Assembly: GCF_039645985.1 (NCBI RefSeq)
Contig: NZ_CP147919.1
Location: forward strand, 620,001-684,000
Source of the DNA: Sulfurimonas sp. HSL3-7
GTDB taxonomy: Bacteria; Campylobacterota; Campylobacteria; Campylobacterales; Sulfurimonadaceae
Length of the DNA: 64,000 nt
Direction of reading: 5' to 3'
Both the position numbers and the translations under genes were made by a program. Shown piece after piece: positions 17,447 through 28,679 of this stretch. Position 1 is the first letter of the stretch. Every line of letters begins with the position of its first letter. The notes under the pieces were generated by a model, which ran no database searches, had not been told where the DNA came from, and saw only the letters and a program-made list of their open reading frames with translations.

Positions 17447-18154
17447 ATGAGCTCAGGACACAAACAAGTCAAGCGGATGACCGCTTTTATGCGGATCAAC
17501 CACTGGACGGTCGCGATCTGTATGGTTGCCGCCGTTCTGACGGGCCTCTATATCGGTCATCCCTATTATCAAAGTTTTATGGCCGACCCGGCCGTCACAA
17601 AGTATGTGATGGCATGGAACCGATGGATCCACTTCATGTCTGCAATCATTTTCGATGTCAGCAGTGTCGTAGTCGCCTATCTCTATTTCTTCTCAAGATT
17701 TGAAAAGCCTTATAAGAAGTTGATCCCTTCCGGCGGGAATATCAAAGAGTTTTTGGCGGTTTTCATCAATCTTTTAACCCTTAACAGGGTGAAAAAGTTC
17801 GATTCGTCGCATGCGGACAGCTTTAACGCCGTCTTCTTTTTTATCTTTCACCTGATGCTGGTATGGATGCTGCTAAGCGGACTTCAGATGTACGTGCACG
17901 GACTGGCATCGGGCATCAGTTCTATCGGCGGGTGGTGGCCGGCACTGCTGCATTTTGCTACCGACTGGACGGTGAGCGTATGCGGCGGATCGCTTATGGA
18001 TGTCAGAATATGCCATCACTACAGCATGTATGCCATTATCGCCTGGGTCATGTTCCATGTCTACTACCAGATCTGGCGCACGATCTTCTGGAAAGAGGGC
18101 GACATCGCCATCGTCATAGGCGGCTCAAAATTTGTCAGGGATGAGAAGCGTTAA
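17447..18154 (+). CDS. hydC: Hydrogenase cytochrome b subunit
   Basis: HydC is the integral membrane di-haem cytochrome b that passes electrons from HydA to the quinone pool. Four hydrophobic segments can be seen, with haem-ligand candidates HWTVAICMV near residue 21, WIHFMSA, FHLMLVWML and HHYSMYAIIAWVMFHVYYQIW near the C-terminus. At 235 residues it has the usual size. A strong ribosome-binding site AAGGAGG lies seven bases before the ATG. The last two sense codons and the stop lie inside the first copy of an 83-bp tandem repeat. Confidence 0.93.
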   Translation: MSSGHKQVKRMTAFMRINHWTVAICMVAAVLTGLYIGHPYYQSFMADPAVTKYVMAWNRWIHFMSAIIFDVSSVVVAYLYFFSRFEKPYKKLIPSGGNIKEFLAVFINLLTLNRVKKFDSSHADSFNAVFFFIFHLMLVWMLLSGLQMYVHGLASGISSIGGWWPALLHFATDWTVSVCGGSLMDVRICHHYSMYAIIAWVMFHVYYQIWRTIFWKEGDIAIVIGGSKFVRDEKR

Positions 18155-18390
18155 GCAGAGGCAAACTGCTTTGCCTCTGTAGCTTCGGAACCGGAGCCGA
18201 TGTGCCGTAGGCACCGGCGAAGGCTAAAAAGCGTTAAGCAGAGGCAAACTGCTTTGCCTCTGTAGCTTCGGAACCGGAGCCGATGTGCCGTAGGCACCGG
18301 CGAAGGCTAAAAAGCGTTAAGCAGAGGCAAACTGCTTTGCCTCTGTAGCTTCGGAACCGGAGCCGATGTGCCGTAGGCTAAAATAACGTC
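18146..18390. repeat. Three tandem copies of an 83-bp hairpin unit
   Basis: Copies begin at 18146, 18229 and 18312, exactly 83 bases apart. The first two look identical. The third lacks 12 bases near its end, and a weak fourth start follows it. Each unit has a perfect 10-bp hairpin (CAGAGGCAAA and TTTGCCTCTG around CTGC) and a second longer hairpin closed by TAGCTTCG and CGAAGGCTA around an inner GTGCC-GTA-GGCAC stem. The array fills the gap between hydC and hydE. Confidence 0.9.
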
Positions 18391-24635: not shown

Positions 24636-25277
24636 ATGGAAATAGGTTTTATTTTGATATTCTGGTACGGCGTACTGCATGCGTTCGGGCCTGACCATCT
24701 CACGGCGATCGCTGATTTTTCGATCGGAAAGTCCATGAAAAAGACGATGCTGATAACGGTTATGTTCGCGTTCGGGCACGGGTTGATGTTGTTTATTTTC
24801 GCAAAAGTGATGCAGCTTTATGCGCTTAGCGATACCATTACAGGCTACGGCGATATGATCTCTTCTACGGTGATCATCGCCATGGGCGGCTATCTGCTTT
24901 ATATGGCGATGGCGGATCGTATTCAGTTGAATCGGCACGGGCATGAGGGCAAAGAACACACCCATATCTATTTTGGAAAGAGACACACGCATTCTGATGC
25001 ATCGGTTTCCGCTTCTGCGTGGACAATGGGGGCGTTGATGGGCATGGGCGGTGTACGGGGCATGCTGGTTACACTGGGCATGCTTAACGGTGCCGATGTG
25101 GAGTGGACAATGGTACTGGCTTTTGTTGCCGGCGTATCGCTTGTCTTTATGGGTTTCGGTGTTATCATACTCTATCTCAACCGCCATCTTTTAACAAACC
25201 TGAAAAATATCCGCAGGACATTTGTAGCTGCCGGGGTGATCTCCATTGCAGTCGGAAGCCAAATGCTGATAGCATGA
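24636..25277 (+). CDS. Nickel/cobalt permease-like membrane protein (HX4DH type)
   Basis: This 213-residue protein has about six hydrophobic segments and the nickel/cobalt transporter signature HAFGPDH at residues 15-21, with a second GHG in the following helix. A His-rich loop (HGHEGKEHTHIYFGKRHTH) lies between the two halves near residues 100-115. It belongs with the NicO/RcnA/UreH-like group rather than to an ABC system. Placed directly before hypB, it most likely imports Ni2+ for hydrogenase maturation; export cannot be excluded from sequence alone. Translation should follow an AATCCGGAG site. Confidence 0.8.
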   Translation: MEIGFILIFWYGVLHAFGPDHLTAIADFSIGKSMKKTMLITVMFAFGHGLMLFIFAKVMQLYALSDTITGYGDMISSTVIIAMGGYLLYMAMADRIQLNRHGHEGKEHTHIYFGKRHTHSDASVSASAWTMGALMGMGGVRGMLVTLGMLNGADVEWTMVLAFVAGVSLVFMGFGVIILYLNRHLLTNLKNIRRTFVAAGVISIAVGSQMLIA

Positions 25278-25343
25278 GATAGCGTTATGAAGGGGGACCC
25301 TGTTCCTTTCACGCGTAAAATAAATCAAAAAGAAGGAAGCTTT

Positions 25344-26124: not shown

Positions 26125-26415
26125 ATGTGTCTCTCCATCCCATCAAAAGTGGTCAAGATCGATAAAGAGAACAATACGGCTGTCGTAGACACTATGGGTG
26201 TCACCCGCAAAGCAGGCCTGGAGCTTATCGAGGAGGGCACAGTCGAGGTCGGCGACTATGTGCTGATCCATATCGGTTTTGTGATGAACAAGATCGATGA
26301 AGAGGATGCCCTGGAGTCCCTGAAGGTCTATAACGAGATCCTTGAAAAGATGGATGAGCAAGAACGCGAAAACCTGGTTTTGGAAGATGACAACTGCGGC
26401 ACCAGAGGGTCCTGA
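26125..26415 (+). CDS. hypC: Hydrogenase assembly chaperone HypC
   Basis: HypC binds the large-subunit precursor and shuttles the Fe(CN)2CO group with HypD. The N-terminal MCLSIPSKVV contains the essential Cys2. At 96 residues it is slightly longer than the usual 75-90, due to an acidic C-terminal tail ending CGTRGS. It starts two bases after the hypB stop and overlaps hypD (TGATG), so expression is tightly coupled. Confidence 0.97.
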   Translation: MCLSIPSKVVKIDKENNTAVVDTMGVTRKAGLELIEEGTVEVGDYVLIHIGFVMNKIDEEDALESLKVYNEILEKMDEQERENLVLEDDNCGTRGS

Positions 26416-27536
26416 TGAGTGAACTACAGCTCAAAGACCTTTATGACGGTTTTCGCAACCCGGATACGATCCGCTCTTTGGCAAAGCAGATCGCACGGGA
26501 GGCCGAGAAGCTCGAGGCACCTTTGCGTATTATGGAGGTATGCGGAGGGCATACCCACACCATCATGAAGTACGGACTGCCGCAGCTGCTTCCCGATTCG
26601 ATCTCTTTTATTCACGGTCCCGGCTGCCCTGTCTGTATTATGCCCAAAGAGCGCATCGACCACGCCATTGCCCTGGCAAAAATGGAAAACACGATCCTGG
26701 TGACGCTCGGCGATATGATCCGGGTACCCGGTTCCAAGACCTCTTTGGCTCAGGAGCGTGCGGCCGGCTATGACATACGGCCGCTCTATACACCGGCGGA
26801 CGCGCTGAAGATCGCGAAAGAGAACCCCGACAAAAAAGTGATCTTCTTTGCTATAGGTTTTGAGACGACGACCCCCATGACGACGGCCGTTATAAAAGCG
26901 ACGGTGGAGCAAAAGATCAAAAACCTCTTTTTCCATATCAACCATGTGCTTGTACCGCCGGCGGTCGATGCCATTATGGCAGACGGAAAGGCCCGGATCA
27001 ATGCCTTTATCGGCCCCTCCCACGTCAGTGTCATAGCCGGTGCCAAGATCTATCAGCCGATCCCGCTTGCCTACAGAACCCCTGTCGTCGTTTCAGGATT
27101 TGAGCCGGTCGATGTGCTGCAGGGGATCCTGATGACCGTACGCCAGCAGGTGCAGAACAGGGCGGAACTCGAGATCGAATATACCCGATCGGTGACGATG
27201 GAGGGCAATACAAAAGCCCAGAAGCTGATAGAGACCTACCTGCAGCCGCGTCCGCACTTCCGCTGGCGGGGCATCGGCGACATTGAGCGCAGTGCGTTGG
27301 AGCTGAGGCCTGAATTTGCCTATCTGGATGCTGAAAAACTCTTTGGCGATGTGCTGCCGAACGAGCCCATCGATGACCACAAGCTCTGTATCTGCGGGAC
27401 GATCTTGAAGGGGCTTGCCAAACCGATGGACTGCAAGGTCTTCGGCAAAGCCTGCACCCCGAACACGCCGCTCGGCAGCTGTATGGTCAGTTCGGAAGGA
27501 GCCTGTAATGCGTACTACCGTTATCAAGGTGTGTGA
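26415..27536 (+). CDS. hypD: Hydrogenase formation protein HypD
   Basis: HypD carries a [4Fe-4S] cluster and is the scaffold on which the Fe(CN)2CO group is built with HypC and HypE. Motifs seen are VCGGHTHTIMKYG, GPGCPVCIMP, FFAIGFETTTPMT, PVVVSGFEP and a C-terminal Cys-rich stretch (LCICGTILKG, CKVFGKACTP, GSCMVSSEGACNAYYRY). The 373 residues make a complete protein. Its stop at 27534-27536 is followed by a hairpin element and then a second copy of the last 17 codons, so the gene no longer overlaps hypE. Confidence 0.96.
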   Translation: MSELQLKDLYDGFRNPDTIRSLAKQIAREAEKLEAPLRIMEVCGGHTHTIMKYGLPQLLPDSISFIHGPGCPVCIMPKERIDHAIALAKMENTILVTLGDMIRVPGSKTSLAQERAAGYDIRPLYTPADALKIAKENPDKKVIFFAIGFETTTPMTTAVIKATVEQKIKNLFFHINHVLVPPAVDAIMADGKARINAFIGPSHVSVIAGAKIYQPIPLAYRTPVVVSGFEPVDVLQGILMTVRQQVQNRAELEIEYTRSVTMEGNTKAQKLIETYLQPRPHFRWRGIGDIERSALELRPEFAYLDAEKLFGDVLPNEPIDDHKLCICGTILKGLAKPMDCKVFGKACTPNTPLGSCMVSSEGACNAYYRYQGV

Positions 27537-27541
27537 CTTCT

Positions 27542-27605
27542 GCCCCGTAGGGGCTAGCTTTAGTGCCACAGCGGCCAGCGAAAGCAAACGGGCTTTTGCC
27601 CGTTT
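27542..27605. repeat. Intergenic hairpin element, copy C, between hypD and hypD-tail remnant
   Basis: The element has a 5-bp stem GCCCC-GTA-GGGGC (27542-27554), a linker ending CAGCGAAAGC, and a perfect 8-bp hairpin AAACGGGC-TTTT-GCCCGTTT (27586-27605). Its layout matches the element at 8737-8796. It separates the hypD stop from the duplicated hypD 3' end. Confidence 0.5.
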
Positions 27606-27624
27606 GGTGTGTCAAAATGGTGTC

Positions 27625-27684
27625 ATGGTCAGCAGCGAGGGGGCTTGCAACGCCTATTACCGTTATGCAGGGGTGCAGGCATGA
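27625..27684 (+). pseudogene. Detached second copy of the hypD 3' end
   Basis: These 60 bases encode MVSSEGACNAYYRYAGVQA and a stop that overlaps the hypE start as ATGA, the junction expected for an intact hypD-hypE pair. The peptide equals the hypD C-terminus at 16 of 17 shared residues, but ten of those codons differ only by synonymous changes (for example AGT TCG GAA GGA against AGC AGC GAG GGG). It is a remnant of a different hypD allele, not a recent local copy. No start codon or gene body precedes it. Confidence 0.75.
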
Positions 27685-28679
27685 AAGTCGTACAGCTCAG
27701 CCACGGCGGCGGCGGTGAAGAGACCAATACGCTTATCCGTGATCTTTTCTACAAACACTTCAGTAACGATATCCTCATCAAAGCCGAAGACGCCGCCGTA
27801 TTGGAGGTCAATAAAAAGATCGCCTTTACGACCGACAGCTTTACCGTCAGCCCCATCTTTTTCAACGGCGGCGATATCGGAAAGCTTGCTGTTGCCGGAA
27901 CGGTCAATGACCTCGCGATGATGGGTGCGCGGCCGCTTTATCTGAGTGCCGCTTTTATGGTCGAGGAGGGGTTTTCCTTCGGTGACCTTGAGCAGATCGT
28001 GGAGAGTATGGCCAAAGAGCTGGTCAAGTCCGGTGCCAGGATCGTCTGCGGCGATACCAAAGTGGTACCGCGGGGAAGCGTCGACAAGCTTTTCATCAAC
28101 ACGGCGGGCATCGGTGAGATTGAAAAAGAGGGTATCTCTACGCTTAATCTTAAAGAAGAGGATGTCATCATCGCCTCGCGGGATATCGGCCGTCACGGTG
28201 CTACCGTACTTATGGCGAGGGAAAATCTTGATGTGAGTGCCGATCTTCAAAGCGACTGTGAGACGCTCTGGCCTGCAGTCGAGGCGCTCATCGGGGGGAA
28301 TATCGCCATACATGCCATGCGCGATGCGACCCGCGGCGGCCTCTCTGCCGTGCTGAACGAGTGGGCCCAAAGCAGCCGTGTCTGCCTCGAGATCGAAGAG
28401 GATGGTGTGGCGATCTGTGATGAGGTACGCGGTATCTGTGAGATGTTCGGCTTCGAAGCGATGGACTTTGCCAATGAGGGGAGCTTTGTGCTTGCGGTGG
28501 CACCGGCGGACGCCGATGCCGCGATCGAGATCTTGCGCAGGTTCGATTTTTGTGAAAACGCTTCGATCATCGGTCGTGTCACACAAAAATATCCTGCCAA
28601 AGTCGTTCTCCGCTCGAACTATGGCAGCAGCCGTTTTCTCGATCTGCCAAAAGGCGAGCTTTTGCCGAGGATCTGCTGA
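27681..28679 (+). CDS. hypE: Carbamoyl phosphate-dependent hydrogenase maturation protein HypE
   Basis: HypE accepts the carbamoyl group from HypF on its C-terminal Cys and dehydrates it to thiocyanate with ATP. The 332-residue protein has the N-terminal LSHGGGGEETNTLI, the PurM-like core (FTTDSFTVSPIFF, GDIGKLAVAGTVNDLAMMGA, DATRGGLSAVLNEWA), and ends in PRIC with the reactive Cys as last residue. The start at 27681 lies on the hypD-tail remnant as ATGA; longer frames upstream run through the remnant and are not credible. The stop overlaps hypA (TGATG). Confidence 0.97.
   Translation: MKVVQLSHGGGGEETNTLIRDLFYKHFSNDILIKAEDAAVLEVNKKIAFTTDSFTVSPIFFNGGDIGKLAVAGTVNDLAMMGARPLYLSAAFMVEEGFSFGDLEQIVESMAKELVKSGARIVCGDTKVVPRGSVDKLFINTAGIGEIEKEGISTLNLKEEDVIIASRDIGRHGATVLMARENLDVSADLQSDCETLWPAVEALIGGNIAIHAMRDATRGGLSAVLNEWAQSSRVCLEIEEDGVAICDEVRGICEMFGFEAMDFANEGSFVLAVAPADADAAIEILRRFDFCENASIIGRVTQKYPAKVVLRSNYGSSRFLDLPKGELLPRIC

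Follow-up and report, generated by a model that had tools for sequence, protein, structure and literature searches.

The hypD–hypE junction

The hypD gene in the window (the whole stretch of 64,000 nucleotides of Sulfurimonas sp. HSL3-7 DNA that was analysed) is followed by a second version of its own 3' end, which raises the question of what separates the two ends and how both came to stand before hypE. The features of the junction, in window coordinates, are as follows:

26415..27536, + strand: complete hypD, with copy 1 as its last codons and the TGA at 27534-27536 as its own stop; Pfam HypD 7.5e-150
27483..27533, + strand: copy 1 of the hypD 3' end, in frame with hypD (repeat search; 38/51 positions as in the sister species)
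27537..27624, + strand: inserted segment, nearly all of it element E (covariance model R1, 71 bits, match 27535-27621)
27625..27675, + strand: copy 2 of the hypD 3' end, out of frame with hypD (47/51 positions as in the sister species)
27676..27684, + strand: relic, the native hypD stop with its ATGA overlap to hypE (from the sequence; relatives are arranged alike)
27681..28679, + strand: hypE, open reading frame from the ATG at 27681 reading MKVVQLSHGGGGEE, collinear with relatives

The doubled hypD end is confirmed as a real feature. The two copies form a direct repeat of 51 nt, identical at 37/51 positions, whose offset of 142 puts copy 2 in a different frame. Copy 1 translates as MVSSEGACNAYYRYQGV and copy 2 as MVSSEGACNAYYRYAGVQA, each followed by a stop, and 16 of the 17 residues are identical, while among the 17 codons ten differ by synonymous changes, one by a replacement and only six are the same. 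Under neutral drift, a synonymous excess of this size has a P of about 2e-5. The description in the earlier note, namely that hypD ends twice with 16 of 17 residues kept and ten codons synonymously recoded, was thus borne out, except that the first copy starts one base earlier (27483); the second copy also keeps the ATGA junction with hypE (hypE ATG at 27681), as had been stated there.

The comparison of junctions with those of relatives showed that the structure is absent from them, so it does not represent the deep ancestral state that had been considered as an alternative: a single hypD end was present in 28/28 relatives whose hypD end was read. Without bases 27483-27624, the window is collinear with the hypD–hypE junction of the sister species (206/236 identical). 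The hypD stop now lies 144 bases upstream of the hypE start, and the native ATGA overlap and the sequence preceding it survive in copy 2. A pattern search for a terminator or promoter at the 88-base insert found none. An assembly artefact is scarcely credible as the source of the doubled end, as the genome is a single contig, the copies differ at 14/51 bases and the structure recurs in separate assemblies.

Element E

The segment between the two ends belongs to a dispersed stem-loop repeat of ~75-90 bp with three hairpins, called here element E. Its parts at hypD and a further match in the window are as follows:

27542..27554, + strand: hairpin 1 of E, GCCCCGTAGGGGC (sequence, predicted fold)
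27563..27580, + strand: conserved core of E, GTGCCACAGCGGCCAGCG, nearly invariant in 41 aligned copies
27586..27605, + strand: hairpin 2 of E, AAACGGGCTTTTGCCCGTTT (fold; compensatory changes on both sides at 8 pairs across the family)
25243..25325, + strand: second, weak match to E upstream of hypB (model R1, 16.2 bits, E-value 0.0037), a probable remnant

The covariance model R1, built from 41 family copies with the window copy among them, gave 25 matches in the window genome and 10-35 per genome in five relatives. The core GTGCCACAGCGGCCAGCG, with at most one mismatch, occurs in 63/228 family genomes, and the reversed control pattern in none. Besides scattered copies, the window genome contains an E-like tandem array of six 74-bp units (C1:2636063-2636512). 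The claim that E is structured is based on covariation and not on the fold energy of the insert: two-sided changes were found at 8/16 consensus pairs, all eight of them in hairpin 2, while the predicted fold of the insert alone is unexceptional (z -1.35).

A stop codon directly precedes many E copies. Most copies carry a GCGTAGC tag directly before hairpin 2, the hypD copy and the tandem array having GCGAAAG or GCGAAG. By inspection, the 41-copy consensus has internal hairpins without a terminal inverted repeat, and the alignment, likewise inspected, shows no site at the 5' end complementary to the 3' end of E (GCGTTCAAA). A conserved TGG at the right end of E, apparent in the repeat-flanked cases described below, failed across all copies. 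Rfam models compared with E gave nothing near the gathering score.

The weak match at 25243-25325 is situated between the gene ending at 25277 and hypB, where the sister species is different. Translation of hypB probably starts at the ATG reading MCQDCGC, not at the start of the longer open reading frame from 25287. In another genus, the hypD–hypE spacer carries an apparent half E (hairpin 2 with GTTCAAA) and no second hypD end (L097, L012).

Several observations concern the wider family. At L358 (G000:C1:1487148-1487209, the window genome), L059, L063, L168 and L265, E apparently lies inside the RNase P RNA gene (rnpB), a placement judged from the flanks ACAGAGAGTAGACCGCC ... GGTAAGGGTGAAAC in the window genome and in relatives of several genera. 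A related subfamily, with CAGCGTTAGCGTAGCC as its core and hairpin 2 laid out in the same way, is present in the window genome as tandem pairs and triples (L361, L363, L364, L365). At L071, L228, L245, L248 and L265, a further small hairpin (e.g., GTACCCTCACTTTTGGGTA) stands inside the hairpin 2 loop, as if nested. The window also holds a perfect tandem array at 18146-18378, made up of 2.8 units of 83 bp that contain two hairpins and a GTAG; it gave no R1 match and may represent another family of repeats of this kind.

Direct repeats flanking E at other loci

E copies with their flanks were taken from many genomes, flanks holding another E were excluded, and repeats with a score of at least 20 were counted. 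Strong flanking direct repeats (29-84 bp matched) were present at 7/123 E copies, hypD not being counted among the seven, and at none of the controls (0/492 displaced and 0/122 swapped, 0/614 in total). Two of the seven cases, L261 and L266, are one orthologous site in two species. The hypD locus is an eighth repeat-flanked case, its score being lower as the copies have diverged. The repeats abut E within 9 bases on both sides, with the exception of the tRNA case, which has a 33-base spacer on the left. With gene names read from the translations, the repeated targets are the ends of smpB and of a heptosyltransferase-like gene, the end of the gene before a metG-like gene, a tRNA-Leu, a gene start and the stretch between two E copies. 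Moreover, an exact 13-bp flanking repeat was found at 163503 in the window genome, and repeat lengths vary among loci from 13 to ~100 bp. Most E copies have no detectable flanking repeat, which may be due either to their age or to an origin of those copies in another way. At L070 (G002), apparently a whole tRNA-Leu gene together with E is duplicated in tandem, with 84 identical bases.

Because repeats flanking E recur at unrelated loci with varying length, long target duplications of variable size are their best reading, rather than cargo specific to hypD. The earlier note had allowed for an inserted element that had brought along a replacement end of the gene. The inserted element was recognised, since the 88 bases are a dispersed repeat of mobile type, but the carried gene end was not upheld, as target repeats flank E at unrelated loci. 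A related explanation sees in the locus what is left of an integrative element, comparable to e14 in icd, that took the place of the gene end and later shrank by deletion to 142 bp. A replacement end followed by a displaced native end is indeed the layout that such elements leave. However, there is neither an integrase nor room for one, and the same E is found at numerous unrelated genes, where the repeats differ in length, which makes this origin very improbable.

Origin of the two hypD ends

Copy 2 differs from the sister species (G003) at four of the 51 positions, all four changed codons are synonymous, and its residues are exactly those of the sister species. Copy 1 is identical to the sister species at 38/51 positions. 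Both distances lie within the range of 51-nt hypD windows, in the 12% tail for copy 1 and the 3% tail for copy 2. With 14 differences between the copies, compared with the 4 between copy 2 and the sister species, the tails fail to group together as a local duplication of recent date would, a grouping that had been proposed as a counter-argument to recombination. The hypD body is uniformly ~84% identical to that of the sister species, and import of the whole gene was rejected on this ground. The sequences lean at most slightly towards copy 1 as the foreign copy.

The recombination of two hypD alleles suggested in the earlier note found support, in that both ends behave as alleles that evolved as coding sequence, and its combination of an inserted element with two alleles holds up for the most part. 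No donor of copy 1 was found in the GTDB scan or in 399 genomes of the order, the best match being 84% over the end and the sequence upstream. The missing donor is one of the points against a one-step import, in which a relative's hypD end together with E would have been joined by homology at hypD and illegitimately at the end of E, the repeat being a scar of uptake. Such an import would also place two alleles side by side, and the right junction does lie at the end of E. It leaves unexplained, however, why that junction coincides with the E terminus every time and why exact repeats stand at other, unrelated loci, among them a gene start and a tRNA; we regard it as quite improbable.

The smpB sites offer a comparison. 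In the genus g10, the smpB repeat measures ~100 bp and includes the terminator hairpin (G016, G250 and G032), and the empty site without E is present in G249 and G245. The smpB gene body of G250 groups with G245 and G016. Its terminator in copy 1 matches that of G245 (score 23 vs 12), while its terminator in copy 2 matches that of G249, which belongs to the other clade (23 vs 8). Judged by these matches, smpB of G250 is a separate case in which alleles of two lineages stand on either side of E. Likewise, the repeat pair at the heptosyltransferase-like gene is a mosaic, nearly identical on the left and diverged beside E.

In the window's own genus, E at smpB is common to several species and the second smpB end is partly decayed, so function does not preserve second ends over long periods. 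A functional second end reached by frameshift or bypass is unlikely, in view of this decay and of the frame of copy 2, which varies among the cases.

In the pool of four gene-end pairs, two of which come from the smpB site in a single genus and do not count as independent insertions, 27 codons differ synonymously and 2 by replacement. Neutral drift is excluded for these pairs (P 1e-13), and constraint on one copy only is disfavoured (P 3e-4).

These results bear on the simplest explanation, that E made a target duplication whose two ends then diverged in place, with no second allele. Identical or nearly identical repeats at other loci are what young duplications would be expected to show, and the distance of copy 1 from the sister species, equalled by 12% of windows, is not abnormal by itself. 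Divergence in place nevertheless requires that the translated copy took up nearly all the changes and that the untranslated one, which codes for exactly the sister-species residues, received hardly any, each of them synonymous; moreover, recombination is evident from the mosaic pairs at smpB and at the heptosyltransferase-like gene. We therefore hold divergence in place to be unlikely, though less so than a one-step import.

It is probable that E inserted at the hypD end with a target duplication of ~51 bp, and that exchange between diverged alleles through the duplicated ends followed. In this view, insertion of a non-autonomous E would have produced a staggered duplication of the target, giving the order body, end, stop, E, end, hypE. 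Neither hypD nor hypE would be broken, because the left repeat would complete hypD and the right repeat would retain the native end and the hypE start region. The homology offered by the duplicated ends would then allow exchange with alleles from other lineages, whether E-plus or E-minus, and the present pair of ends would thus come from two different hypD alleles, each under protein-level selection. Two steps in this account are inferences: that E is mobilised in a transposition-like manner and makes long target duplications of variable length, and that alleles were exchanged at hypD much as at smpB.

Candidate mobilising enzymes

Y1 transposases (RAYT-type) occur in the window genome (G000) and in the sister species. 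The Y1_Tnp domain is absent from the E-rich genomes G016, G249 and G250 and only marginal in G032, and the nine Y1 loci had one weak E match and no strong E nearby. Similarly, RVT_1 was not found in the four g10 genomes (G016, G032, G249 and G250), and one was present in each of G000 and G003. Neither RAYT nor a reverse transcriptase, as the mobiliser of a target-primed element, is thus consistently present in E-carrying genomes. An earlier reverse transcriptase, since lost, may have mobilised E.

Significance of the proposed long target duplications

E is a small palindromic element of a known kind, and what is unusual is the length of its target duplications. Bacterial transposons usually duplicate just a few target bases. 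Duplications of 13 to ~100 bp by a short element would point to an unusual insertion mechanism. The recurring layout suggests that the element duplicates long target stretches and thereby spares host genes, and such duplications would explain how E can build up directly after stop codons, next to tRNAs and within the RNase P RNA gene while function is retained. We tentatively propose, as a possibility, a so far undescribed form of E mobility that duplicates up to ~100 bp of target, which would make insertion at gene ends and starts harmless and would also create local points of allele swapping. E would also account for structures in which a gene ends twice, otherwise annotated as pseudogene fragments. 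As the two ends can preserve two alleles, the ends that flank E would form a natural record of exchange between species.

Comparison with known systems

The literature searched, with subscription journals largely outside the search, yielded nothing on such repeats in this bacterial group. E resembles MITEs, being short, non-coding, dispersed and flanked by target duplications. MITEs are defined by terminal inverted repeats and a short target duplication of fixed length, whereas the E consensus is without terminal inverted repeats and its duplications are long and variable. The attC sites of integrons have paired RYYYAAC / GTTRRRY core sites; the E end GCGTTCAAA has, on inspection, no complementary 5' site, which speaks against an attC identity. 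Prophage e14 in icd is an integrative element that provides a replacement gene end and displaces the native one, an arrangement also seen at hypD. Elements of this type, however, have an integrase and one target, whereas E is a dispersed repeat at many genes.

GTAG-tagged REP repeats have been reported from Sulfurovum NBC37-1 too (PMC3733652). E shares with them a GTAG-like tag in most copies, covarying stems, an extragenic place and tandem clusters that include flanking DNA. Unlike the REPs, which are single hairpins of 20-40 bp, E is a three-hairpin unit; its hypD copy is without GTAG, and no strong E lies beside Y1 transposase genes. Because the link to Y1 transposases was tested and did not hold, E is not filed under the GTAG REPs, nor is it filed under YPAL.

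As far as the account in PMC2229807 (citing De Gregorio 2006) goes, YPAL, or RU-2, of Yersinia is a palindromic element of 168 bp with internal inverted repeats and variable target duplications of 3-26 bp. E, too, is short, non-coding and palindromic; it has inverted repeats within the element, and the size of its target duplications varies. By the same account, the two differ in size, E having ~75-90 bp and duplications of 13 to ~100 bp. Likened by description and not by sequence, YPAL appears to be the nearest precedent for E in its behaviour.
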